Assembly (NCBI GenBank): GCA_003220155.1
Contig: QHRO01000248.1
Span: forward strand, 1 to 43,395
Source: Verrucomicrobiota bacterium
GTDB taxonomy: Bacteria > Verrucomicrobiota > Verrucomicrobiia > Chthoniobacterales > UBA10450
Reading direction: 5' to 3'
DNA length: 43,395 bases
Below, in pieces: positions 19,023 to 37,775 of the stretch (positions within the stretch are counted from its first letter, which is position 1; each line of letters begins with the position of its first letter). A program made the position numbers and the translations under genes. The notes under the pieces are model-generated. The model did no database searches and was not told the DNA's origin. It saw nothing but the letters and a program-made list of their open reading frames with translations.

Positions 19023-21524
19023 ATGTTTGAATCATTTTTTCAGGATGTGCGGGTGGGGCTTCGTGTTTTGTTTAAGGAGAAATCCTTCTGCTTCCTAGCC
19101 GTGCTCGTGCTCGCACTGGGCATCGGCGGCGCGACTACTCAGTTCACAGTCGTCAACGCCACTGTATTACGCGGGTTTTCGTTTCCTTATCCAGAACAGC
19201 TGATGAGCGTGGGGTTGATCGATCCTCAGGCCAGTGCGCAAAATAATAATTTCGGTCTCGGCAACATCCCGACGGCTCAGGACTACGAGGACCTACGCGC
19301 GGCCCAGCAGTCGTTCGCGCAGATGGCCGGTTATTTGAGCGGATCGACAATCAACGTCACTTACAAAAACAATCCGCAGCGTTACACTGGCGCGTACATT
19401 ACCGAAGACCTCTTTAGGATTATCGGCGTTTCGCCGATAATGGGCCGCGACTTCACCGCCGACGACAACAAACCCGGTTCAGAAAAAGTCGCCATTTTAA
19501 GTCACGAGATTTGGAAGCGGGATTTCAATGGCGACCCCAACATTGTCGGGCAAAGCGTTCGGATTAATGGCAAGGCCGCGACCATCATCGGTGTGATGCC
19601 GCCGAATTTTAAATTTCCATTTTCCGACCAACTTTGGGTTCCCCTCTACAATGAGTTTCCTCCAATACCGCGCGGCCAACTCGTGATTGGTGCGAATAAT
19701 GCCGCACCCGCAGTCATGGGCCGGCTCAAACCGGGCGTCAGCATCGATCAGGTGAACGCGGAGTTTGTCGGCCTGGCGCGCCGGTTGGCTCAGGACAATC
19801 CGAAAACGAACAGCACTCTTACGTCCGCGAACGTGCAGCCCCTTTTGAAAGCGATGACCGGCCCGCAGCTGCGCCAGCAAGTTTGGGGGATGCTTGCCGC
19901 GGTCATCCTCGTTTTGCTGATCGCGTGTGTGAACGTGATGAATATGCAATTTGGTCGCGCCGCCTTGCGGGCAAAGGAACTGGCGATTCGTGGTGCGCTT
20001 GGCGCCACCCGTTGGCGAATCGTCCGCCAAATGCTGACTGAAAGTTTTGTTGTCGCGGCATTTGGCGCAGTCGCGGGCGTGTTGCTAGCCTATTGGGCGG
20101 TCGACCTGCTCATTCGGGCGACGAATTCGCTGCCGTTTCCGCCACCTTATTGGATTCAATATAGGATAGACGGCCCTGTTCTTGTCTTCACCGTCGCAAT
20201 CACGTTAGTGGCAACGATTGTTTCCGGTTTAGTTCCGGCGTTCGTCAGCTCGAAAGGCAATGCCGCGGAGATCATGAAAGAAGGCGGCCGCGGCAATAGC
20301 AGCCGGTTGGTCAATATCATCACTCGTGTGCTCGTGGTCGGGCAGATCGCGTTGACAGCGGCACTCCTGATTGCGGCCACGCTGCAAATCAAATCAATTC
20401 GAAATCAGGTCACGCTCAATTATGGCTACGACGAGAGTGCTATTTATACAGCGCGCATGGCCCTGATGGAAGGCGCTTATCCGACGCAGGACGCTCGTCG
20501 TGGATTTTTTCTTCGTGCAGTGCGGGCATTGCGAGCCAAACCGCAATTCGAATCTGTAGCGATGAGCGATCGCTTTCGCATGACCTTTGCCGGGCAAGGT
20601 CAATATGAAGTGGATGGTCAAAATTATACGACGGACCGCGATCGGCCACGGGGAAACTTCGAGTCGGTGTCGGATAACTATTTTGCAACGCTCGGTTTGA
20701 AGATTTTGGAAGGCCGTGATTTCACCATTGATGACAGCGATGCTAAACAACCGGTGGCGATCGTTAACGCGAGCTTCGCGCGAAAGTATTACAGTAACGA
20801 AAGTCCGATTGGGCGTCGGATCCGGATCTATAATCCCGGCCAACCGCAGCCGTGGCGCACGATTGTCGGAGTGGTTCCGGACACACTGATGCAGGGTCCA
20901 TTCGACCAGCAGACCGATACCGGCGGCTTTTACATGCCGCTCCTCGGCGCCGACCCCGCCACGCAATTTTGCACAATCATTGTTCGCCCGTGTCCGGGAC
21001 AGCGAGCCGATACCCTCGGTTCGGCCCTCAGCAGGGCAGTTGCCGAACTCGATTCAAATTTGCCGACTTATTTCGCCGGAACGCCAGCGCGCTTGCACGA
21101 TGAAATCCTCGGTGGCAACCGAATTATCGCCACCTTATTCGGCATTTTCGGAGCGGTCGCATTCGTGCTCTCGGCAGTTGGTCTTTACGGCGTGATGAGC
21201 TTTTCCGTTACTCAGCGGACGCAGGAATTTGGCATCCGGATGGCGCTGGGCGCGGATGCCGCTCGCATCTTTCGCATGGTCATGACGCAAGGCGCCTGGC
21301 AGTTGGGCATCGGGCTCGTTCTTGGCGCCGGCGGCGCCGCGCTGCTCCTAGGGGTTCTCGCGGCCGCTGCTTTGCAGAACATTCTCTTCAAGGTCAACAC
21401 GCTCGATCCGTTCATTTATTTCGCGGTTGCAGGAATGCTCGCTCTCGTCGCGGCGGCATCTTGTTTCGTTCCCGCACGCCGCGCCACTCTGGTCGATCCG
21501 ATCGTTGCTCTTCGCTATGAGTAA
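19023..21524 (+). CDS. ADOP-type ABC permease (MacB/FtsX family), first of three
   Basis: The 833-residue protein has the ADOP layout: N-terminal helix (about 18-42, FLAVLVLALGIGGATTQFTVV), a MacB_PCD periplasmic domain (about 50-260), then three-helix FtsX domain (about 285-420, LLIACVNVMNMQFGRAALRAKELAIRGALGA). A further helix near 435, a second MacB_PCD domain and a final FtsX domain follow (about 705-833, FGIRMALGADAARIF; end ARRATLVDPIVALRYE). Such proteins form the membrane half of MacB-like complexes that act mechanically on periplasmic substrates; an ATPase partner is not encoded nearby. The start is well supported by AGGAG at 19010-19014. The next paralogue starts 24 bp after its stop. 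Confidence 0.92.
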   Translation: MFESFFQDVRVGLRVLFKEKSFCFLAVLVLALGIGGATTQFTVVNATVLRGFSFPYPEQLMSVGLIDPQASAQNNNFGLGNIPTAQDYEDLRAAQQSFAQMAGYLSGSTINVTYKNNPQRYTGAYITEDLFRIIGVSPIMGRDFTADDNKPGSEKVAILSHEIWKRDFNGDPNIVGQSVRINGKAATIIGVMPPNFKFPFSDQLWVPLYNEFPPIPRGQLVIGANNAAPAVMGRLKPGVSIDQVNAEFVGLARRLAQDNPKTNSTLTSANVQPLLKAMTGPQLRQQVWGMLAAVILVLLIACVNVMNMQFGRAALRAKELAIRGALGATRWRIVRQMLTESFVVAAFGAVAGVLLAYWAVDLLIRATNSLPFPPPYWIQYRIDGPVLVFTVAITLVATIVSGLVPAFVSSKGNAAEIMKEGGRGNSSRLVNIITRVLVVGQIALTAALLIAATLQIKSIRNQVTLNYGYDESAIYTARMALMEGAYPTQDARRGFFLRAVRALRAKPQFESVAMSDRFRMTFAGQGQYEVDGQNYTTDRDRPRGNFESVSDNYFATLGLKILEGRDFTIDDSDAKQPVAIVNASFARKYYSNESPIGRRIRIYNPGQPQPWRTIVGVVPDTLMQGPFDQQTDTGGFYMPLLGADPATQFCTIIVRPCPGQRADTLGSALSRAVAELDSNLPTYFAGTPARLHDEILGGNRIIATLFGIFGAVAFVLSAVGLYGVMSFSVTQRTQEFGIRMALGADAARIFRMVMTQGAWQLGIGLVLGAGGAALLLGVLAAAALQNILFKVNTLDPFIYFAVAGMLALVAAASCFVPARRATLVDPIVALRYE

Positions 21525-21548
21525 AATTTGGTAAACAAAAGGCCGATC

Positions 21549-23972
21549 GTGTTCACCGATTTCCGTTTTGCACTTCGCCAGCTACGAAAATCTCCGGGCT
21601 TCACCTTACTTTCTGTCCTCACGCTTGCTCTCGGCATCGGTGTAAACACTGCAATTTTTAGCCTAATCCACGATCTCTTTCTGCGCGGTATGCCGTTCCA
21701 GGAAGTGTCTCGCATCGTGCGGATTTACGGTGAAGCAAAAGAGCGCGACCTGAAGCAACTGCCGTTCTCGGTTCCGAAGTTTTGGCATTACCGCGACGGC
21801 CAAAACGTTTTTGCCAGTTTCGCCGCCGATTGGGGGAATGGTTACATCCTGACCGGACTCGGTGAGCCGGTCCAGGTTCTCGGCGAAAATGTCACCGCTA
21901 ACTACTTCGATTTATTAGGCATTCATCCGATTGCCGGCCGCAACTTCCTTCAGCAGGAGGAAATGAGGGACAACGTCGCCTTGGTCACGGAAAGTTTCTG
22001 GCGCAAGCGCCTCAATTCCGATCCGGCCGCACTCGGCCGCAGCATTGCATTGAACGGCGTCGCCACCACGATTGTTGGAGTTTTGCCTAACCTTCCAATC
22101 TCGTGGTTCGGTCGTGATTCCGAAGTCTTTATCGCCACGCCGTTTGATAATCCGAACGCGACGAAGGATCGACTGATGCGCGGTTTCAGTTTTATGCGTT
22201 GCATCGGACGACTGAAACCTGGAGTAACGATTCAGCAGGCGCAGGCCGCGATGCCTTCTCTCGAGCAAAGTTATCGCGCACAACATCCGGAAACAGCAGA
22301 TTGCACCTGGACGTCGACGGTAATTAGCGCTGACGAAGACGTCACGGGCGATCTACGACCCGCGTTTGTCACCTTGCTCATTGCCGTCGGTGCGGTCCTG
22401 CTTATCGCATGCAGCAATGTTGCAAATCTTTTGCTCGTTCGTTTCAGCGGGCGCCGACGTGAAATCGCGTTACGAATGGCTTTGGGAGCCGAGCGGCGCA
22501 ACGTCGTCCGACTGTTCGTGCTCGAAAGTACCATCATCAGCGTGGCTGCCGGCGGGGTCGGCCTGGCCCTCGCACTTTGGATCGTGTCAGTGGTTCCGAA
22601 AGTCGCGGGCGACAACGTTCCACTTGAAACCGCGGTCACGCTTCATTGGCCAGTCCTTTTTTTCACACTTGCCCTTTCCTTGTTGACTGGATTCGCCATG
22701 GGAGTTTATCCCGCATGGCAAGGTTCCCGCGCTGACCTCGTCGATGGATTGAAAGAAGGTGGCCGCGCCATCAGCGGCAGTCGCGGGCAACATCGATTCC
22801 GCCGCGGACTCGTCTCGGCACAAGTTGCTCTTTCAATGGTGTTACTCGCTGCAGCGGCGATGCTAATCTCAAGTTTCGTTAGACTAAGTAATCAGGAAAG
22901 TGGATTCCGGTCGGATCATGTTTGGGCTGGCGGAATCGGTTTACCCGCCGCGCGATATCCGGATCCCACATCGCGCGGTCATTTCGTTCAACGTTTGGTT
23001 GACGAGCTGCAAGCATCGCCCGGCGTTGAAGCAGCGGCCGCTGCTGACGCGGTCCCGTTGAGCGGCAATTATTCTCAAACTCCGTACATGCGCGCGGATG
23101 GCAATCCATTGCCGGTAAATCAGCGCCCGCTCGGTTTAACACGCAGTATTTCGCCAGCATATTTCCGCGCGTTGCGCGTCCCGTTGCTCGCCGGTCGCGA
23201 ATTTAATGAACGGGACGGAGCCGATCAGCCGCTCGTCGTTATCTTGAGTAATTCGACCGCTAAGAAGTTATTTCCGAACGAAAATCCGCTTGGCCGGCAA
23301 ATCCTCTTTGGAGTCGATAACGGCAATGGGCTTCCCGCCGTAGTGGTGGGCGTCGTCGGCGATGTTCGATCGCGCGAACTCGCCAAGCCCAACGATATCG
23401 AATTCTACCGCCCGTGGCCGCAGCGGAGCGTTTCGTTTTTCAACGTGATGGTGCGCACGCCTATGAAACCGGACGCAACTCAGACCATTGTTCGCGCCGC
23501 GCTCGACAAGATCGATAAAGACACGCCGATTCTGCAACCAGATACGCTCGATGCCATTGTGACCCAATCATTGGGACAGCGGCGGCTGACCATGGGATTG
23601 CTCGGCGCATTTGCCGGCATCGCCTTGCTCCTCGCGATCGTTGGAATTTACGGCGCCGTTGCCTACACCGTGGAACAACGAACCGCCGAAATCGGTGTGC
23701 GCATGGCCCTTGGTGCGCAAGTCAAAGATGTTTTGCAGCTCGTTGTCAAACAAGGGATGAATCCCGTATTGATCGGACTTGGCGTAGGTCTGATTGCGGT
23801 CTTCGCGACTGGCCGTTTGCTCGCGACGCAACTCTACCAAATTTCTCCACACAATCCGGTTCTAGTTAGCCTGACCGCAATCGGGCTGGCCTTTGCCGCG
23901 CTCCTTGCCTGTTTAATTCCCGCGCGACGGGCAACCGCGATCGATCCCATCCAGGCTCTTCGCAGCGAATAA
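21549..23972 (+). CDS. ADOP-type ABC permease (MacB/FtsX family), second of three
   Basis: This protein of about 807 residues begins FTDFRFALRQLRKSPGFTLL. I use the GTG at 21549, preceded by AAAAGG, because it aligns with the start of the third gene (MTDLRFALRQLLKSPGFTSL); a TTG at 21528 is possible. It has MacB_PCD domains and two FtsX domains with NVANLLLVRFSGRRREIALRMALGA, ARRATAIDPIQALRSE and PAWQGSRADLVDGLKEGGR. It is much closer to the third gene than to the first, indicating a local duplication. Probably in one operon with both. No ATPase domain. Cargo unknown. Confidence 0.92.
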   Translation: MFTDFRFALRQLRKSPGFTLLSVLTLALGIGVNTAIFSLIHDLFLRGMPFQEVSRIVRIYGEAKERDLKQLPFSVPKFWHYRDGQNVFASFAADWGNGYILTGLGEPVQVLGENVTANYFDLLGIHPIAGRNFLQQEEMRDNVALVTESFWRKRLNSDPAALGRSIALNGVATTIVGVLPNLPISWFGRDSEVFIATPFDNPNATKDRLMRGFSFMRCIGRLKPGVTIQQAQAAMPSLEQSYRAQHPETADCTWTSTVISADEDVTGDLRPAFVTLLIAVGAVLLIACSNVANLLLVRFSGRRREIALRMALGAERRNVVRLFVLESTIISVAAGGVGLALALWIVSVVPKVAGDNVPLETAVTLHWPVLFFTLALSLLTGFAMGVYPAWQGSRADLVDGLKEGGRAISGSRGQHRFRRGLVSAQVALSMVLLAAAAMLISSFVRLSNQESGFRSDHVWAGGIGLPAARYPDPTSRGHFVQRLVDELQASPGVEAAAAADAVPLSGNYSQTPYMRADGNPLPVNQRPLGLTRSISPAYFRALRVPLLAGREFNERDGADQPLVVILSNSTAKKLFPNENPLGRQILFGVDNGNGLPAVVVGVVGDVRSRELAKPNDIEFYRPWPQRSVSFFNVMVRTPMKPDATQTIVRAALDKIDKDTPILQPDTLDAIVTQSLGQRRLTMGLLGAFAGIALLLAIVGIYGAVAYTVEQRTAEIGVRMALGAQVKDVLQLVVKQGMNPVLIGLGVGLIAVFATGRLLATQLYQISPHNPVLVSLTAIGLAFAALLACLIPARRATAIDPIQALRSE

Positions 23973-24009
23973 CCGTGCTCTTCGTTATGACCAAAACCGG
24001 CCGTTATTT

Positions 24010-26433
24010 ATGATGACCGATCTCCGCTTCGCCCTTCGGCAATTACTCAAGTCGCCCGGGTTTACTTCGCTGGCGTTGCTCACGCTCGCCCTTGGGATTG
24101 GACTGAACACTGCGATCTTTAGCCTGATCAACGACCTGTTTTTGCGCGGTCTCCAATTTAAGGAGCCCGGACGCGTCGTGCACATGTATTCGAATGCCAG
24201 GCAGCGCAATTTGCTGGAGCTCGCTGTCTCGGTACCGCGGTTTCAACATTTCCGCGCCAGCCAGAAAATTTTTGACGGGTTCGAGGGCGAAAATATCATC
24301 CCGTTCACTTTGACCGGACTGGGCGATGCGGTGCAGCTTTTCGGCGGCAAGGTGACGTCGAACTATTTCGACGTCCTCGGCGTACAACCGATACGCGGCC
24401 GCAATTTTTTGCCCGAGGAAGAAGAGACCGCCGACGTGGCGATGGTGACGGAAAATTTCTGGCAGAAACGGATGGGCGGCGACCCGAATGTGATCGGCCG
24501 CAGCATTACGCTCGACGGCGTGCCGCACACCATCGTGGGCGTGTTGCCGAACCTGCCGTTTTCCTGGATCGGACCGAATGCTGAGATCTGGACGACGAAA
24601 CCGTTCGTGGTTCCCGGACTTTCCTACGAACGAATCATGCGGGGCAGCGGTTTCCTACGCGTGATCGGGCGCTTGAAACCGGGGATGACGATCGAACAGG
24701 CGCGGGCCGCGTTACCGCCGCTCGAGCAAAGTTATCGCGCCCAATATCCGGACAAGATCGACAGTTCATCGGTCATGACGCTCAAGACGCTGCCTGAGGA
24801 CGTGACGGGAAACCTGCGGCCAGCCTTTGCCACTTTGCTCGCGGCAGTTGCGTTCGTATTGCTGATTGCGTGCAGCAATGTGGCAAATCTCCTGCTCGTA
24901 CGCTTTAGCGGCCGGCGGCGAGAAATTGCACTGCGCATGGCGTTGGGCGCGTCACGCGCGAGCGTGTTGCGACTTTTCATTTTCGAAAGTTTGCTCGTAA
25001 GCGTTCTTGCTGGAGCAGTCGGCGCAGGCTTGGCATATGAGTTGGTTCCGTTCGTGCCGAAAATGGCGGCGAATTTTCTTCCCCTCGATCCCGAGACTAG
25101 CATCAGCCTCTCGCTTCCCGTGCTCGGGTTCACCATTCTTCTGTCGCTCTTAACGGGCGTGGCGATGGGCGTTTATCCGGCATTGCAAAGTTCACGAGCT
25201 GATCTGGTCGAAGGATTGAAAGAAGGCGGACGCGGAACGAGCGGCAGCATGCAGCAGCACCGGTTCCGTAAAATCTTGGTCGGCGCGCAAGTCGCGCTCT
25301 CTGTCACGTTGCTGGCGGGCGCGGCGTTACTCATCACCAGCTTCGTGAAGTTGAGCAAGCAGAACATCGGGTTCCGCCCCGAGAATATGTGGACTGGCCT
25401 GGTGACATTGCCGCAAGCGGCCTATCCCGATTCCGCCACGCGCCAGCGTTTCGTGGAAAAAACTCTGGCGGCGTTGCAGCGGATTCCAACGATCCAAAGC
25501 GCCACGATCAGTGGCGATATCCCGTTGATCGCTGCTGCCGCCGCTAACATGCTTTACACCCGCCCGGACGGTGAAATTTTGCCGGTGGATAAGCGGGCCG
25601 CCGCCGCGGGCCACGATATTGCGCCGGGTTATTTCAAGACCTTCGGCATTCCCATCCTGGCGGGACGCGATATCGATCAGCACGACGCAGCCGATCATCA
25701 GAATGTGATGCTAATCAGCCAGGCCGGCGCGCGGAAAGTTTTTGGCAACGAGAATCCGATCGACAAAACGCTTCTGATCTCGAGTGCGAGCACGCCGGTG
25801 GAGATCATCGGTGTGGTGGGCGACGTGCGGATGCGGCGCATAGCGGACCCGGACGAAGTGGAAATCTACCGTCCGTGGGCACAGGAGAATTTTCCGTTCG
25901 CGGTGATCGCGGTGCGGAGCGCGCTGAGAGAGGATGCGGTGACTAGAGTGGTGCAGTCGGCGCTCGGCACGGTCGATCCTGGGTTGGCGGTCGCGATTCC
26001 GCAATCGATGGACGCCATTGTCGCGCAAGCGCTCGGCCAGGCGCGGCTGATGACGTGGCTGTTGGGAATTTTTGCCGGTGCGGCCTTGCTATTGGCGACG
26101 GTTGGAATTTACGGTGCAGTTGCTTATACAGTCGAGCAACGCACCTGCGAAATTGGCGTGCGCATGGCGCTCGGTGCACAAACCAAGGACATCTTGCGAT
26201 TAATTGTAAATCAGGGAATGCGGCCGGTCGTACTCGGATTGGTTATCGGCTTGGCCGCGGCGTTAGCGCTCGGCCGTTTAATCACGTCGCAACTTTATCA
26301 AACTTCCGCTAACAATCCTCTGTTACTCGCGGCAACGATGTCGATCCTCGGACTTGCGGCGCTGGTTGCTTGTGTTTTTCCCGCACGCCGGGCAGCGATG
26401 CTCGATCCGGTGCAAGCATTGCGCACGGAATAA
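24010..26433 (+). CDS. ADOP-type ABC permease (MacB/FtsX family), third of three
   Basis: The 807-residue protein has the same domain order as its neighbour and near-identical landmark segments: FALRQLLKSPGFTSL, NVANLLLVRFSGRRREIALR, SSRADLVEGLKEGGRG, GIYGAVAYTVEQRTCEIGVR and the end ARRAAMLDPVQALRTE. It therefore arose by tandem duplication of the second gene, from which it is 37 bp away. The first codons are two ATGs at 24010 and 24013. The final gene of the three-gene run, it converges on the APC permease. Family known for macrolide export and lipoprotein-type work; no substrate evidence here. Confidence 0.92.
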   Translation: MMTDLRFALRQLLKSPGFTSLALLTLALGIGLNTAIFSLINDLFLRGLQFKEPGRVVHMYSNARQRNLLELAVSVPRFQHFRASQKIFDGFEGENIIPFTLTGLGDAVQLFGGKVTSNYFDVLGVQPIRGRNFLPEEEETADVAMVTENFWQKRMGGDPNVIGRSITLDGVPHTIVGVLPNLPFSWIGPNAEIWTTKPFVVPGLSYERIMRGSGFLRVIGRLKPGMTIEQARAALPPLEQSYRAQYPDKIDSSSVMTLKTLPEDVTGNLRPAFATLLAAVAFVLLIACSNVANLLLVRFSGRRREIALRMALGASRASVLRLFIFESLLVSVLAGAVGAGLAYELVPFVPKMAANFLPLDPETSISLSLPVLGFTILLSLLTGVAMGVYPALQSSRADLVEGLKEGGRGTSGSMQQHRFRKILVGAQVALSVTLLAGAALLITSFVKLSKQNIGFRPENMWTGLVTLPQAAYPDSATRQRFVEKTLAALQRIPTIQSATISGDIPLIAAAAANMLYTRPDGEILPVDKRAAAAGHDIAPGYFKTFGIPILAGRDIDQHDAADHQNVMLISQAGARKVFGNENPIDKTLLISSASTPVEIIGVVGDVRMRRIADPDEVEIYRPWAQENFPFAVIAVRSALREDAVTRVVQSALGTVDPGLAVAIPQSMDAIVAQALGQARLMTWLLGIFAGAALLLATVGIYGAVAYTVEQRTCEIGVRMALGAQTKDILRLIVNQGMRPVVLGLVIGLAAALALGRLITSQLYQTSANNPLLLAATMSILGLAALVACVFPARRAAMLDPVQALRTE

Positions 26434-28901: not shown

Positions 28902-29857
28902 CCGAAACGGACCTCCAGCCCAGCGCGAAAAAGCGCGACGTCGCGTTCGCGTTCCCGCAAAAGATCGCGCGCTTCTTCCAACTCAATCAATTCGAACCGG
29001 ACTTCGTCGAGCGGCTGCAATTGTGCCGCGTCTGCGAGATCAACCGTGATCACGTGCGCGATCTTCGGATAACCCCCGATCGTCTGGCAATCACCAAGAA
29101 GCACGACCGGCGCCCCGCTACGCGGAAGCTGAATCGTTCCGGGCGCCACTGCTTCGGAAACAAGCTCGGCCGGGTTAGTCGATACCATCTCACCGCCTTC
29201 TAATCGCAAACCCATGCGGTCGGAATTCATCGCCACGCCGAATTTTTGCGCGAGCAATTTGGCTTCGATATCATCATCCCAATTCTTCCCGCGAATAACG
29301 CGAAGAAATCTTCTGCGCGAGCCGAATCGCGGTGCGCTCCAATCGGAAACGACATTTGGAAGCGCGGCGCGAATACGCGGGCAAAGTTCTGATTCCGCAC
29401 CCAGCGGAAGCAGATCCCCATCGCGTAGCGCGCGGCCTTCCCATCCACCGAAGCGGGCGCGCAAATCGGTCGCCCGGCTTCCCAGAATTTCAGGAACATC
29501 AATTCCACCGGAAATGGCCAGCCAGGCGCGGCCACCGCGCTTCGGCGAAATCTCGATCATCCCGCCAGCTGAAACGCGCGCGCAATGCAAAATCGGAATT
29601 GGCTCGTCTCCAATTCGCATCTCGAATTCGCCGCCGCTCCACGCGACCAATCGGTTGACGTTAAGCTTCAATCGTACTCGACCGCTCGTCACTTCGAGAC
29701 CAGCCACGCATTCCGGATTGCCCACCAGAAGATTCGCCAGTCGCAAAGAAACGGAATCGAGCGCGCCACCAGGCGTCACGCCAAACTTACGGAGTCCGGC
29801 GCGTCCGCAATCCTGCACCGTAGTCTGAAATCCTGCAGAAATGACTGACGCCGTCAT
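28898..29857 (-). CDS. pxpC: 5-oxoprolinase subunit C (biotin-dependent carboxyltransferase-like)
   Basis: The 319-residue protein matches the KipA/PxpC family: SAGFQTTVQDCGRAGLRKFGVTPGGALDSVSLRLAN at the N-terminus in recognisable blocks, LEVTSGRVRL near 60, SGGIDVPEILGSRATDLRARFGGWEGRALRDGD near 113-145, and LGDCQTIGGYPKIAHVI near 255-271. The fold is shared with the carboxyltransferase domain of urea carboxylase. Together with PxpB it couples ATP hydrolysis to 5-oxoproline phosphorylation. Four-nt overlaps link it to pxpB upstream and pxpA downstream. No defect is visible in this subunit. Confidence 0.93.
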   Translation of the reverse strand: MTASVISAGFQTTVQDCGRAGLRKFGVTPGGALDSVSLRLANLLVGNPECVAGLEVTSGRVRLKLNVNRLVAWSGGEFEMRIGDEPIPILHCARVSAGGMIEISPKRGGRAWLAISGGIDVPEILGSRATDLRARFGGWEGRALRDGDLLPLGAESELCPRIRAALPNVVSDWSAPRFGSRRRFLRVIRGKNWDDDIEAKLLAQKFGVAMNSDRMGLRLEGGEMVSTNPAELVSEAVAPGTIQLPRSGAPVVLLGDCQTIGGYPKIAHVITVDLADAAQLQPLDEVRFELIELEEARDLLRERERDVALFRAGLEVRFG

Positions 29858-30512
29858 CCCGAGCTTTCTTTTACGCGCGCTTCAAATTCATTGCGCGTAA
29901 TACCACGAAAGCGAACGCGATCGCCCGCCTGCAACAAAGCGGGCGGATTCGCATTCGGATCAAACAAACGCAACGGCGTGCGACCGATCAAATTCCAACC
30001 ACCCGGAGACTCAACCGGATAGACTCCGGCTTGGGTCCGCGCAATCGCAACCGAACCCGCGGGGACTTTCGTCCGCGGAGTGGCCAGGCGCGTTGTCCGC
30101 AGTTTTTCCGGAAGCCCAGCGAGAAAAGGAAACCCGGGCATAAACCCGACGCACGCGACAACAAATTCGGCGGATGCAAATTTGTTTCCGCTTCGACGCG
30201 GGCGAGATCCAGAGCAAAGTCGGCGTCGTAGCACACTGGAATTTCAATTCTTCGCCTCTTTCGTGACACGCGAATCCGTGCCGAGGCAACCAACGCGCGA
30301 ATCTTCTCTTCAACGTCTCGTTCAATCCGCGCTGGATCAAAAAACAGCGCCACCGACTCGTAAGCGGACGTAACATCGATTACTCCAGGAACGTTCGCCC
30401 TCTCCAGAGTCTCCGCCACCGAGAGTGCACGCGCCAATAATCGCTCGCGATCGGGGGACTCATCAGTGAAATCAACGGTGATTGCGGAATCACCCAGCGG
30501 GGAAATCTTCAT
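29854..30512 (-). pseudogene. pxpB: 5-oxoprolinase subunit B (KipI-like), frameshifted
   Basis: From the ATG at 30512 the first frame gives MKISPLGDSAITVDF, a typical KipI start, and runs to VCYDADFALDLARVEAETNLHPP. The second frame then supplies the catalytic half, EFVVACVGFMPGFPFLAGLPEKL, VPAGSVAIARTQAGVYPVESPGG and WNLIGRTPLRLFD, ending at 29854. The frames switch near 30165-30171, and one extra base there would join them. Compared with KipI homologues as I remember them, about ten residues that normally precede the GFxPGFPFL motif are also absent, so the lesion may be a deletion of about 28 bp rather than one base. As written the subunit would be truncated and the PxpABC enzyme probably inactive, unless frameshifting or a sequence error is involved. 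Overlaps pxpC by 4 nt. Confidence 0.85.
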
Positions 30513-30530
30513 CAATTACGATTTATCCCG

Positions 30531-30728: not shown

Positions 30729-33266
30729 ATGAGCGCCTGGAAATTTCTTTTGATCGCGCTGGCGGTCATCACTCTGCTTTGGTTCCTCAATCCCGAACGT
30801 ACGATCAAACGTAACGAGCCCGGCATAGTCGAAATCGTTTATCTGGCGGAGAGCGGGCCGGATACAGCGTCGGTCGAAGAAGCAATGCGCGAGTTCGAAG
30901 CCCAAAGCCGCGCTGCTCATCAAGAAAATCCATCGCACCCAATTTACAAAATTATCAAAGGCCAGACCGCCTCGCGTGATCCGACCGCCGATCCAACCCG
31001 TTTTCTCGTTAGTCTGGCGGGGGGAATGCCCCCCGACTTGATCCTCTTCGATCGTTACGCCGTGAGCGAATGGGCGGCACGCGGCACCTTCACCAAACTG
31101 GACGAATTCGTTGCCCGCGAATCCTCGAGCCCTGCGCCCGACGCAATTCGCCCGGAAAATTTCTACAAGTCATGCTGGGACGAAGTTGTTTATGAAAATC
31201 CTACCACCCACGAGCGCGGCATTTACGGAATCCCGGAGCACGTCGATGATCGCGCGCTTTTTTACAATAAGGATCTATTGAAGCGAGCCGGCTTTGTCGA
31301 CGCAAACGGGGAAGCGCAGCCGCCCCGCACTTGGGATGAGCTCGAGCGAATGGCGGTCAAATTAACCGAACACGACGCCCGCGGACGCATTACCCAGCTT
31401 GGCTTCGCGCCCAATTTCGGCAACGCCTGGCTTTATCTTTACAGTTGGATGAACGGCGGGCAGTTCCTGAGCGACGATCGCCGCCGCTGCACCTTGAACT
31501 CTCCGGCCGTGGTGCGGGCCCTGGAGTGGATGACACGAGTCTATGATTCGTTAGGCGGCGCCCAAAAGGAATTCGCTTTTGAAGGAACGGCACAGTCCGG
31601 GCAACGAAGCGCTCCGCCTGGTGAGCTCGATCTTTTTGTCCAAGGCAAGGTGGCAATGAAGGTCGACGGCTACTGGATTTTTCCAGAAATGCTCGCGCAA
31701 TACGGCCAAAACTTGAACTACGCGGTCACCCTTCCGCCATTGCCCGCCAGTGCCGCTGGCAGGGAGAACAATGGACACAGTTGGGTAAGCGGTTGGTGTT
31801 ACGCCGTTCCTTCCACCGCGCGACAAAAAGAAGGCGCGTGGGAATTGCTCAAGTTCATGTGCAGTCAGCACGCACGTGAAATCATCGGCGAAAACGAGCG
31901 GCTCCGACTGCAAAGCATCGGGCGCATTTATGTGCCGACGCAAAACGCAAACCGGCGTATCAACGAATGGGCTTTCCAAAAATATATCGCATCCGATCCA
32001 GCCATCCCCGCCAAACTTCGCGATGGCGTTAAACTGCTAAACGATTTGATCGACACTTCGCCTTTCCGGCCAGTAACGCCGGTCGGTCAATTGCTTTTCA
32101 ACGAACAGAAGCGCGCGACTGAGAACGCGATCTTCCACAAAATGTCCGCTCAGGAAGCGCTGAATGAAAGCACGGCAGTGGTGCAGAGTGCCCTCGATCG
32201 AGTGCTTAGTCCGCCGCCGGGCGCGGTTGTGCCGTCGAAGTATTTTTTGGTTGTCTACTTCTCGTTAATAACCGCGGCTGCCATAGGAATTTACCTCTGG
32301 GAGACGCGAATGGGCTTTCCTCCTGCTAATGCTCTTACGCATGCTCGAAAGAAGGGAATCGAGCAGGAGCAGGAAACAGGTGGGACTCGCGCCGGCTATT
32401 TCCGCTCGCAATGGGCCGGTGGTTGGCTCTGCGCCTCGCCGTGGATTATCGGTTTTATCCTCTTCACCGGCGGCCCGATTCTCTTCGCCATCGTCGTCAG
32501 CTTCGCCGATTACGACATTCTGAATCCCGCGCGCTTTGTCGGCCTGGCAAACTATCGCTGGATGTTTACGCGCGACCCGCTGTTTTGGAAGGTGCTTGGT
32601 AATACCCTCTACATGATCATCGGTATTCCACTCGGCATGGCACTAAGTCTGGCCATCGCTCTTCTGCTCAACCTTGAAGTGCGCGGGGTCGCGGTCTGGC
32701 GCACGTTTTTTTATCTGCCGTCAATCGTACCGGCAGTAGCTTCCAGTATTTTGTGGATTTGGATTTTTAATCCGCGAATCGGACTACTTAATAATGTGCT
32801 CGCTGCTTTCGGCGTTCACGGACCTAACTGGTTGCAAGACGAACACACCAGCAAGATCGCGCTGATTTTGATGGGACTTTGGTCGGCCGGCGGCGGGATG
32901 ATCATCTGGCTGGCCGGACTCAAAGGAATTAGCCCGAGCTACTATGAAGCGGCCGCGCTCGATGGCGCGAATGCCTGGCAACGCTTTCGTACCATCACCC
33001 TGCCGTTACTCACTCCCTACATTTTCTTCAATCTCATCATGGGTTTGATTGCTACCCTGCAAATCTTCACCCAGTCATTCATCATGACTCAAGGCGGCCC
33101 GATCGATTCCACTCTCTTTTACGCCTACCATCTTTTTAACAACGCGTTCCGTTTTCTACAGATGGGCTATGCCAGTGCGCTTGGTTGGTTTCTTTTTCTA
33201 GCAGTTTTCACGCTGACGCTACTTCAATTGAAACTATCGAAACGATGGGTACACTATGAGGAGTGA
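30729..33266 (+). CDS. Sugar-type ABC importer: solute-binding protein fused to MalF-like permease
   Basis: The 845-residue protein joins two normally separate parts. Residues 4-21 form an uncleaved-looking membrane anchor; about 33-480 form an extracellular solute-binding domain of the sugar family (GGMPPDLILFDRYAVSEWAARGTFTKLDE, GIPEHVDDRALFYNKDLLKRAGF, TWDELERMAVKLT, GKVAMKVDGYWIF). A helix at about 504-524 then crosses back, a charged linker (525-560) follows, and a complete MalF-type permease begins (562-845, six helices). The ATPase-contacting EAA loop is at about 739-763 (YYEAAALDGANAWQRFRTITLPLL). Topology is consistent: binding domain outside, linker and EAA loop inside. AGGAAAG lies just before the ATG. 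The MalG-type partner follows at 33435. No ATPase gene is adjacent, so a shared one is needed. Sugar specificity is unknown. Confidence 0.9.
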   Translation: MSAWKFLLIALAVITLLWFLNPERTIKRNEPGIVEIVYLAESGPDTASVEEAMREFEAQSRAAHQENPSHPIYKIIKGQTASRDPTADPTRFLVSLAGGMPPDLILFDRYAVSEWAARGTFTKLDEFVARESSSPAPDAIRPENFYKSCWDEVVYENPTTHERGIYGIPEHVDDRALFYNKDLLKRAGFVDANGEAQPPRTWDELERMAVKLTEHDARGRITQLGFAPNFGNAWLYLYSWMNGGQFLSDDRRRCTLNSPAVVRALEWMTRVYDSLGGAQKEFAFEGTAQSGQRSAPPGELDLFVQGKVAMKVDGYWIFPEMLAQYGQNLNYAVTLPPLPASAAGRENNGHSWVSGWCYAVPSTARQKEGAWELLKFMCSQHAREIIGENERLRLQSIGRIYVPTQNANRRINEWAFQKYIASDPAIPAKLRDGVKLLNDLIDTSPFRPVTPVGQLLFNEQKRATENAIFHKMSAQEALNESTAVVQSALDRVLSPPPGAVVPSKYFLVVYFSLITAAAIGIYLWETRMGFPPANALTHARKKGIEQEQETGGTRAGYFRSQWAGGWLCASPWIIGFILFTGGPILFAIVVSFADYDILNPARFVGLANYRWMFTRDPLFWKVLGNTLYMIIGIPLGMALSLAIALLLNLEVRGVAVWRTFFYLPSIVPAVASSILWIWIFNPRIGLLNNVLAAFGVHGPNWLQDEHTSKIALILMGLWSAGGGMIIWLAGLKGISPSYYEAAALDGANAWQRFRTITLPLLTPYIFFNLIMGLIATLQIFTQSFIMTQGGPIDSTLFYAYHLFNNAFRFLQMGYASALGWFLFLAVFTLTLLQLKLSKRWVHYEE

Positions 33267-33282: not shown

Positions 33283-33410
33283 GGTAGCGCACGCGTCTCG
33301 CGTGCTGGTTACGGGGTCTCGCTGCACCAAACTTCACTTCGTGCTGCACGGGTTGAAAAGTCCGCCATGGCGGGAACGCCATCGCCAGCACGCGAGACGC
33401 GGGCGCTACC
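33283..33410. repeat. Long inverted repeat inside the importer operon (GCGCACGCGTCTCGCGTG family)
   Basis: Arms 33283-33308 and 33385-33410 (26 bp, one mismatch; left arm begins GGTAGCGCACGCGTCTCGCG) enclose about 76 bp. Related elements are at 36408-36495 and 37573-37704, with a degenerate one at 12738-12800. This copy separates the fusion gene from the MalG-type gene and could form a strong hairpin in the shared transcript. Confidence 0.85.
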
Positions 33411-33434
33411 CGGAGAGATTCGCACCGCAAGTAT

Positions 33435-35048
33435 ATGATGCGTCGTCTCCTCATCTACGTTTTGTTAATTGCCGGTTCGCTCTTGTTCGCCTGGCCGTTC
33501 ATCTGGATGGCTGGAACCTCAGTCAAGCTCGAACGCGAAGTGCTTTCCAATCGCGCACGCGCCTTCCCCGAGCGCCCAATTCCGCGAGTGAAATCACCTT
33601 ACCTCGACGACCGGCTGTTTTCGCAAGTAACCGGACCGCATCGCGACAAAGCAATCGCCATTATCGAAGAACAAATTCGCGGTCATTTCTCGCCATCGGA
33701 CGTCAACAATGAAGCCGCGCGCGAACAAATTGCGCGCGGGATTTACGAGCGTTTGCTTGGTTCAATTCCGTACGAACGCTGGAGCGAATCGGCCGATCAA
33801 GTACGCGCCACAATAGCTGGCGCGATCACACCGGAATTAATCGATAGCGTCCTCGCAGAATTACGCCGTGCCTTCACCATTGGACAACTCCGCGCGCGTT
33901 CCACCGGCCTCGAAGAAGATCAACTGGTTGCGGCAAAAGAAGTGAAATGGAACGTCACCGGTCCGGCGAAGTTAGCACAGCAACCCGACTTTGCCGAACT
34001 GCGCTACGATTTCTCTTCGGGCGATATCATCACTTTGTCGCGAACTCTTACAACTTCATTTCCAGTCGAACATTTGCGTCGCCTGCAACTGTATTTCCGC
34101 CCGGACGACACCTGGCACGCGTTACGGCTGACGGTAGAGAAACTCGGTCGCCGTTTTGTAGCTGAACGAGCCATTTACCTGGCAGATCACGACTGGCAGA
34201 TTGCAACCTGGCAGGGACCGAGCGCAGACGACTCGCTTACAAAAATCAAAACCTGGACGCTACTGAAGGATGCGGGAAAATCGGAGGTTCGCGGCCCGAA
34301 TGAAGTTAGGATTACGCTGGAACTAGATCGCACCAGCGCGCTTGGCGCGTGGCTGGCAAAAATTTGGCGCAACTATCGCCTCACCCTCGATTACATTCCA
34401 TTTTGGCGTTACGTCGGCACCGGTCTATTTCTCGTTATATTGAATCTAATTGGCACGCTCTTCAGCTGCTCGCTCGCCGCTTATGCTTTCGCCCGTCTGT
34501 ACTGGCCTGGCCGCGGTATCTGCTTTGCCGCCTTGCTCGGCACCATGATGATTCCGGTGCAAGTTACGATGATTCCGCAGTTCCTGATCATGCAAAAACT
34601 TGGCTGGTACAACACGCTTAAGCCGCTTTGGGTGATGAGTTTTTTTGGCTCCGCCTTTAGCATTTTTCTCCTGCGCCAATTTCTCAAAGGCGTTCCCCGC
34701 GACTTGGAAGATGCCGCGCGTCTAGATGGCTGCGGTTTTCTCCGCATCTACTGGCATATTATGCTGCCGTTGGTACGTCCAACCCTTGCCGTGATCGCCA
34801 TTTTTACTTTCCTCGCGACCTGGAACGATTTCATGGGGCCGCTCATCTACCTGAGCGATCAACGGCTCTATCCCCTCTCTTTCGGCCTTTACGCCTTCCA
34901 GATTCAATCGCTCCAGCCTGGCACCAACGCCGGCATCGGCATGTTAATGGCCGGCTCACTCTTGATGATGCTGCCGGTAATCGCAATCTTCTTCTTCGCC
35001 CAACGCTACTTCCTCCAAGGCGTCACGTTGACTGGGATGAAAGGCTAG
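33435..35048 (+). CDS. MalG-like ABC permease with a large periplasmic insert
   Basis: The 537-residue protein has a first helix at about 5-27, then a hydrophilic region at about 36-315, and then five helices forming a normal MalG-type permease core (about 325-537). The EAA loop is DLEDAARLDGCGFLRIYWHIMLPLV (421-445 region) and the end is FFAQRYFLQGVTLTGMKG, both typical of carbohydrate permeases of about 280 residues. The insert therefore doubles the protein and must lie in the periplasm between helices 1 and 2. It contains a helical half (about 65-170) and a probably beta-rich half (about 170-300, VKWNVTGPAKLAQQPDFAELRYDF, LQLYFRPDDTWHALRLTVEKL in short). It should pair with the fused MalF-type protein upstream. 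Function of the insert is unknown. Confidence 0.88.
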   Translation: MMRRLLIYVLLIAGSLLFAWPFIWMAGTSVKLEREVLSNRARAFPERPIPRVKSPYLDDRLFSQVTGPHRDKAIAIIEEQIRGHFSPSDVNNEAAREQIARGIYERLLGSIPYERWSESADQVRATIAGAITPELIDSVLAELRRAFTIGQLRARSTGLEEDQLVAAKEVKWNVTGPAKLAQQPDFAELRYDFSSGDIITLSRTLTTSFPVEHLRRLQLYFRPDDTWHALRLTVEKLGRRFVAERAIYLADHDWQIATWQGPSADDSLTKIKTWTLLKDAGKSEVRGPNEVRITLELDRTSALGAWLAKIWRNYRLTLDYIPFWRYVGTGLFLVILNLIGTLFSCSLAAYAFARLYWPGRGICFAALLGTMMIPVQVTMIPQFLIMQKLGWYNTLKPLWVMSFFGSAFSIFLLRQFLKGVPRDLEDAARLDGCGFLRIYWHIMLPLVRPTLAVIAIFTFLATWNDFMGPLIYLSDQRLYPLSFGLYAFQIQSLQPGTNAGIGMLMAGSLLMMLPVIAIFFFAQRYFLQGVTLTGMKG

Positions 35049-37472: not shown

Positions 37473-37775
37473 CAGCGAGAGCGTGTGCCTTGGAAGGCGG
37501 AGCTCTGCGACGCCGCAGGAAAGGGCTCGCAGGGGCTCGCCCCTCCAAGTGTCGTTCGATTAGCGAGTCGCTCTTTGGTCTGGATAGCGCACGCGTCTCG
37601 CGTGTTGGTTTTGGCGTCTCGCCGAAACAATCTTTACAGAAAAAGTCAGTGATGACGAGACGTCATCGCCAACACGCGAGACGTGTGCGCTACCCAGACC
37701 AAAGAAGAGCAGTCTCCCCGCTCCATGTTACGAATTGTTATTGCGCGTCGTAACCCTTTGGCGACACCTTAGAAC
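37473..37775. other. Intergenic region of about 300 bp made of repeats
   Basis: It holds a compound element bounded by CTTGGA (37489-37494) and TCCAAG (37544-37549) with inner stems CTGCG-ACGC-CGCAG, followed by the inverted repeat at 37573-37704. No coding sequence is visible. Confidence 0.7.
37573..37704. repeat. Longest copy of the GGATAGCGCACGCGTCTC inverted-repeat family
   Basis: Arms 37573-37608 and 37669-37704 (36 bp, two mismatches) begin CTTTGGTCTGGATAGCGCAC. The interior of about 60 bp contains a nested stem GGCGTCTCGCC. This is the best-preserved member of the family in the window. Confidence 0.88.

Follow-up and report, generated by a model that had tools for sequence, protein, structure and literature searches.

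A solute-binding protein fused to a MalF-type permease and its enlarged MalG-type partner in a Verrucomicrobiota bacterium

Two adjoining genes in the window, i.e. the whole stretch of 43,395 nucleotides analysed, are considered with a probability of about 0.8 to code for the membrane components of an ABC importer of type I (CUT1-like) whose receptor is tethered. The host is a soil bacterium. The first gene joins a sugar-type solute-binding protein (SBP) to a MalF-type permease subunit (TMD1) in one chain. The second, located directly downstream, encodes an enlarged MalG-type partner (TMD2), which is a more unusual part of the locus than the fusion. The fused gene includes the following features.

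30729..33266, + strand: fused receptor-permease, SBP and MalF-type TMD1, 845 aa (ORF, Pfam, AlphaFold2, orthologues)
30735..30791, + strand: N-terminal membrane anchor, residues 3–21 (sequence; helix 3–19 in the model; N-termini compared)
30825..32213, + strand: sugar-type solute-binding domain, residues 33–495 (SBP_bac_1, SBP_bac_8; phmmer and Foldseek matches to CpMnBP1)
32235..32306, + strand: extra transmembrane helix, residues 503–526 (model; hydrophobic segment present across aligned members)
32307..32408, + strand: charged, predicted cytoplasmic linker, about residues 527–560 (N-termini/linker alignment; pLDDT <50)
32421..33257, + strand: MalF/UgpA/SugA-type permease core, residues 565–843 (BPD_transp_1; UgpA model 9.6e-30; SugA 7cad_A 3.2e-23)
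32946..33014, + strand: EAA coupling loop of TMD1, about residues 740–763, EAAALDGANAWQRFRTITLPLLTP (alignment)

A single unbroken frame of 845 aa runs from the ATG at 30729 to the stop at 33266. Pfam models for SBP_bac_1 (residues 92–379, E 7e-26), SBP_bac_8 (1.2e-20) and BPD_transp_1 (637–839, 7.9e-13) all matched this one chain above the curated cut-offs, and the proposal of an earlier note on this DNA that an SBP and a MalF-type permease share one polypeptide is borne out. A stop or frameshift between the two parts was looked for, and the frame was found intact both here and in dozens of independent assemblies.

The AlphaFold2 model of the fused protein (run on 50 family members; mean pLDDT 79) consists of a helix at residues 3–19, a two-lobed SBP fold at about 33–495, a helix at 503–526, a linker modelled with low confidence at about 528–558, and permease helices at 556–837. 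Blocks of the SBP fold mostly exceed pLDDT 90, and the permease parts are of moderate pLDDT in this model and in that of TMD2. The model agrees with the earlier description of a sugar-type binding domain lying between an N-terminal anchor and a further helix. By eye, the anchor includes neither a signal-peptidase-like AXA site nor a lipobox, and close relatives likewise have no signal-peptidase-like site; in several members from Hydrogenedentota, comparison of the N-termini by eye revealed a cleavable-looking signal peptide in place of the anchor. Helix 503–526 is expected to bring the chain back to the cytoplasm. The linker that follows is long in most PVC members and short elsewhere. The topology expected from the model is N-in, with the receptor outside, the linker inside, then the permease core, and C-in.

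Within the fused protein, conservation is highest in the TMD1 core, with a mean pairwise identity of 69% as compared with 50% for the SBP. Residues E740, A741, A742, D745, G746 and P759 of its EAA loop are invariant in 50 of 50 aligned family members, and together with the BPD_transp_1 match they uphold the view that the permease is complete and its EAA loop intact. As in CUT1 importers, two different permease subunits with an EAA loop in each are present, and the binding domain is of the sugar type (SBP_bac_1/8).

The best solved relative of the SBP domain is CpMnBP1 (4r9f; phmmer 5.8e-24, Foldseek 4.4e-19), which binds mannobiose and mannotriose. This suggests an oligosaccharide as the substrate class, without fixing which one. 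The neighbouring genes gave no clue to the substrate, the flanking genes being conserved only among close kin and not between phyla. The location of GlgE beside a UgpC-type ATPase gene was considered as a hint at trehalose or maltose and dropped as plain synteny, since family members in which no fusion was detected have these genes in the same order (YgfZ, UgpC, regulator, GlgE, TolQ).

The partner gene includes the following features.

33435..35048, + strand: partner permease, MalG/UgpE-type TMD2, 537 aa (BPD_transp_1 2.6e-15; UgpE model 2.3e-28)
33552..34337, + strand: extracytoplasmic insert of TMD2, residues 40–301, ~260 aa, between TM1 and TM2 (model)
34707..34775, + strand: EAA loop of TMD2, residues 425–447, EDAARLDGCGFLRIYWHIMLPLV (conserved in alignment A4)

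The TMD2 model has the fold of MalG, matching 3puv_G with Z 16.0 and rmsd 4.0 over 258 residues, and the length of TMD2, 537 aa, compares with about 280–300 aa in unfused relatives. Receptor positioning and retention in E. coli are attributed to the P2 loop of MalF. A P2-like loop is excluded from the present TMD1, as its core of about 280 residues is too small; the large extracytoplasmic domain is found here in the MalG-type subunit, whereas the P2 domain of E. coli is part of MalF.

In the proposed mechanism, the receptor would be part of TMD1, with both of its ends fixed to the membrane: one through the N-terminal anchor, which appears to stay uncleaved, the other through the helix leading into the permease. 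As a different, SBP-free permease gene directly follows the fused gene, TMD1 is expected to pair with TMD2 and thus to give a heterodimer with exactly one receptor per transporter, as compared with two in OpuA (PMC11065425). The 1:1 receptor that the earlier note had derived from the tether is judged a sound deduction. The receptor would close on an oligosaccharide-type solute, dock on the TMD1/TMD2 pair and release the solute into the channel; ATP would be hydrolysed by a dimer of a MalK/UgpC-type ATPase attached to both EAA loops. Positioning or retention of the tethered receptor is most likely aided by the extracytoplasmic domain of TMD2.

Fusion of a receptor to its permease is well established for OpuA and GlnPQ, and the binding proteins of sugar importers in Gram-negative bacteria are usually free and in excess. 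The window system shares the tethered-receptor principle with OpuA and GlnPQ but differs from them in the SBP and permease families, its binding domain being SBP_bac_1/8 and not of the OpuAC or amino-acid type. LpqY-SugABC and MalFGK2 have the same TMD1, TMD2 and SBP families, EAA loops and a MalK/UgpC-type ATPase, the kind of motor that is probable here; however, in these two systems the SBP is a chain of its own. Licht et al. 2019 (Res Microbiol 170:1-12; cited in PMC9045158 and PMC7756565) described an importer for maltose/maltodextrin in which MalE and MalF are fused, and the fusion is transport-competent according to PMC7756565, which cites that work. Compared by description, as far as these accounts give it, the importer is like the window protein in that one sugar-binding domain is fused to a MalF-type subunit. 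On the same accounts, an SBP-MalF fusion is of a kind already known and is not new here.

A scan of named genome contigs returned 68 loci, mostly full-length fusions, and 49 other full-length orthologues with 47–90% identity were recognised. The fusions come from Verrucomicrobiota, Kiritimatiellota, Lentisphaerota, Planctomycetota, Omnitrophota, Hydrogenedentota, Poribacteria and others, with the labels Chlamydiota, Nitrospirota and Fibrobacterota standing on metagenome bins and possibly wrong. The architecture, taken for rare in the earlier note, can no longer be described as such given these orthologues and the MalE-MalF importer. Among 58 relatives, intact or truncated fusions were seen within the same genus, family and order. 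Across the phylum, 388 genomes from 199 genera were sampled, and the fusion is present in 15 of these genomes and 10 of these genera. No relatives of the fusion were found in viral contigs. In the unfused relatives that the contig scan returned (L106–L114 and L117, largely from Chloroflexota and Bacillota), the SBP, TMD1 and a short TMD2 are encoded by separate genes. In the MalFG group, tethering of the receptor is thus shown to be old and to have been stably kept in several phyla. The fused importers form a large, previously unstudied family in which a tethered receptor is accompanied by a remodelled MalG. The family offers a natural test system for what is gained or lost by tethering of the receptor, for replacement of the P2 docking domain of MalF, and for the exchange of receptor-permease halves against a common partner.

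Two more SBP-MalF fusions in the same order, very distant from the window family, are present in G051 (L031 6242–8893 and L033 6728–9616). They lie on long branches of the TMD1 tree and are possibly of separate origin. MalF- and MalG-type permease domains were further observed in one chain of 689–767 aa (L038 4471–6774, L115 5175–7244 and L116 5674–7806); in L038, the gene just upstream of the MalF-MalG ORF codes for a separate SBP whose N-terminus includes a hydrophobic segment.

In almost all genomes checked, the main fusion family is accompanied by the long MalG. Of 37 fusion-bearing genomes, 32 gave a TMD2 match at E 1e-120 or better; among the remaining five, one has a truncated long TMD2 (L063) and others stop near the fused gene at a contig edge. 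All of a further 11 genomes gave TMD2 matches, ten with the long form, complete or partial. Ordinary MalG is found in the examined unfused relatives and in some divergent fusions. In the TMD1 tree, a 62-row branch (SH-aLRT 99) holds all long-TMD2 fusions and one short-TMD2 fusion (L126), and the divergent short-TMD2 fusions L128–L131 fall outside it. It is likely that the fusion came first and the TMD2 insert later, although the deep forks of the tree are unsettled and long branches meet there. No description of a long MalG or of a many-to-one pattern was found in the limited open-access set of literature searched.

Gene counts raise an alternative that is held to be less likely than not, namely that SBP-TMD1 fusions act as exchangeable receptor halves, several of which pair with a single long TMD2. 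The fused genes are more numerous than those for a long TMD2 in G059 (3:1), G058 (4:2), G061 (2:1), G062 (3:2), G478 (2:1), G481 (up to 3:1) and G060 (3:1, not counting a divergent fusion that has a short TMD2 of its own); however, these are draft metagenome assemblies, from which TMD2 genes could be absent. Orphan fusions followed by kilobases of unrelated genes and no TMD2 (L092, L094, L095, L096, L099 and L132) retain the EAA loop, but could pair with ordinary TMD2 subunits, which are numerous in those genomes. At L085 the gene order is SBP-TMD1, TMD2, SBP-TMD1, and L083 likewise has two fused genes around one TMD2. As the window genome includes just one fusion/TMD2 pair, relatives are where any sharing would be seen. 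A modular importer, in which receptor-permease halves share or compete for one TMD2 half with a new extracytoplasmic docking domain, is a doubtful elaboration of this pattern; if it exists, the substrate range would be widened by copying the receptor half alone.

In the model, the TMD2 insert, a conserved domain of the family, comprises a helical part (residues 70–143) and then a beta domain (147–298), with pLDDT mostly >90. No sequence or profile relatives of the insert were found in Pfam or the PDB, and tblastn against plasmids gave no match. Structure comparison of the TMD2 model by VIA-align returned transporter chains only and was uninformative about the insert. Foldseek, run with the whole model, gave a single non-transporter match, the agarase PfGH50B (E 2.3e-4, 168 columns, rank 30), which is weak and insufficient for naming the fold. 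Two tryptophans, W190 and W237 (insert numbering), are invariant. It is unlikely that the insert, in place of docking the receptor, serves as a second domain for carbohydrate binding, with capture or presentation of the substrate as its task: the beta-rich domain, the invariant tryptophans and the agarase match would fit such a role, but this match is not placed on the insert, no binding-module family was matched by sequence, and the insert is far more variable than the TMD2 core (mean pairwise identity 27–33% vs 71%).

The motor of the importer is probably encoded elsewhere in the genome. The sole ATPase with a TOBE_2 domain (G000:C315:19343-20461) lies unlinked on another contig and scored above the UgpC model cut-off (490 vs 432 bits). 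By elimination, this MalK/UgpC-type protein is the probable motor of the fused importer, since it is the only TOBE_2 ATPase, no second system was found (a search of the window genome with the fused protein returned only itself), and the other BPD_transp_1 proteins differ in kind. One of them is a classical OpuAC-permease fusion, cut at a contig edge (L042 1–1242, G000:C117), and the remaining ones, as judged by inspection of their sequences and neighbouring genes, are nitrate/sulfonate-type and phosphate-type subunits. Close relatives of the C315 ATPase persist in family members in which no fusion was found (G010, G034 and G020); hence the ATPase is not dedicated to the fused importer. Among the 58 relatives, it occurs in 7 of 9 genomes with the fusion and in about half of the rest, a co-occurrence that is not discriminating.

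The orphan copies, with no adjoining TMD2, and the lack of linked ATPase or catabolic genes would also be consistent with a membrane receptor or sensor that is no transporter subunit. This is very improbable, as the TMD1 core is the most conserved part, its EAA loop is intact and a TMD2 gene directly follows. A chance read-through, pseudogene or assembly join, as might be suspected from G019 (L102 6001–10340), where both genes of the unit are broken into several frames, has practically no chance of being correct in view of the intact single ORF in dozens of independent assemblies and motifs invariant over 50 sequences.

A further feature lies between the two transporter genes.

33283..33411, no strand assigned: dispersed palindromic repeat between the fused gene and the TMD2 gene (genome-wide matches; fold -85.7 kcal/mol, z -5.0)

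The repeat, of about 130 bases, forms a very stable predicted hairpin, which could affect the mRNA of the second transporter gene. Several dozen copies of it, full or partial, are spread over the genome, another one being at 37585–37698 of the window; the 76 matching segments found genome-wide include many overlapping pieces or opposite strands of one copy. Upstream of the fused gene, on the - strand at 29854–30515, a pxpB-like gene (5-oxoprolinase subunit; CT_C_D) is divided between two frames, due to either a frameshift or an assembly error, and its relatives in L028–L030 are each one intact ORF of 224–228 aa. At 19023–26433, three consecutive ORFs (833, 814 and 807 aa) lie in tandem and encode proteins resembling MacB/FtsX-type permeases.
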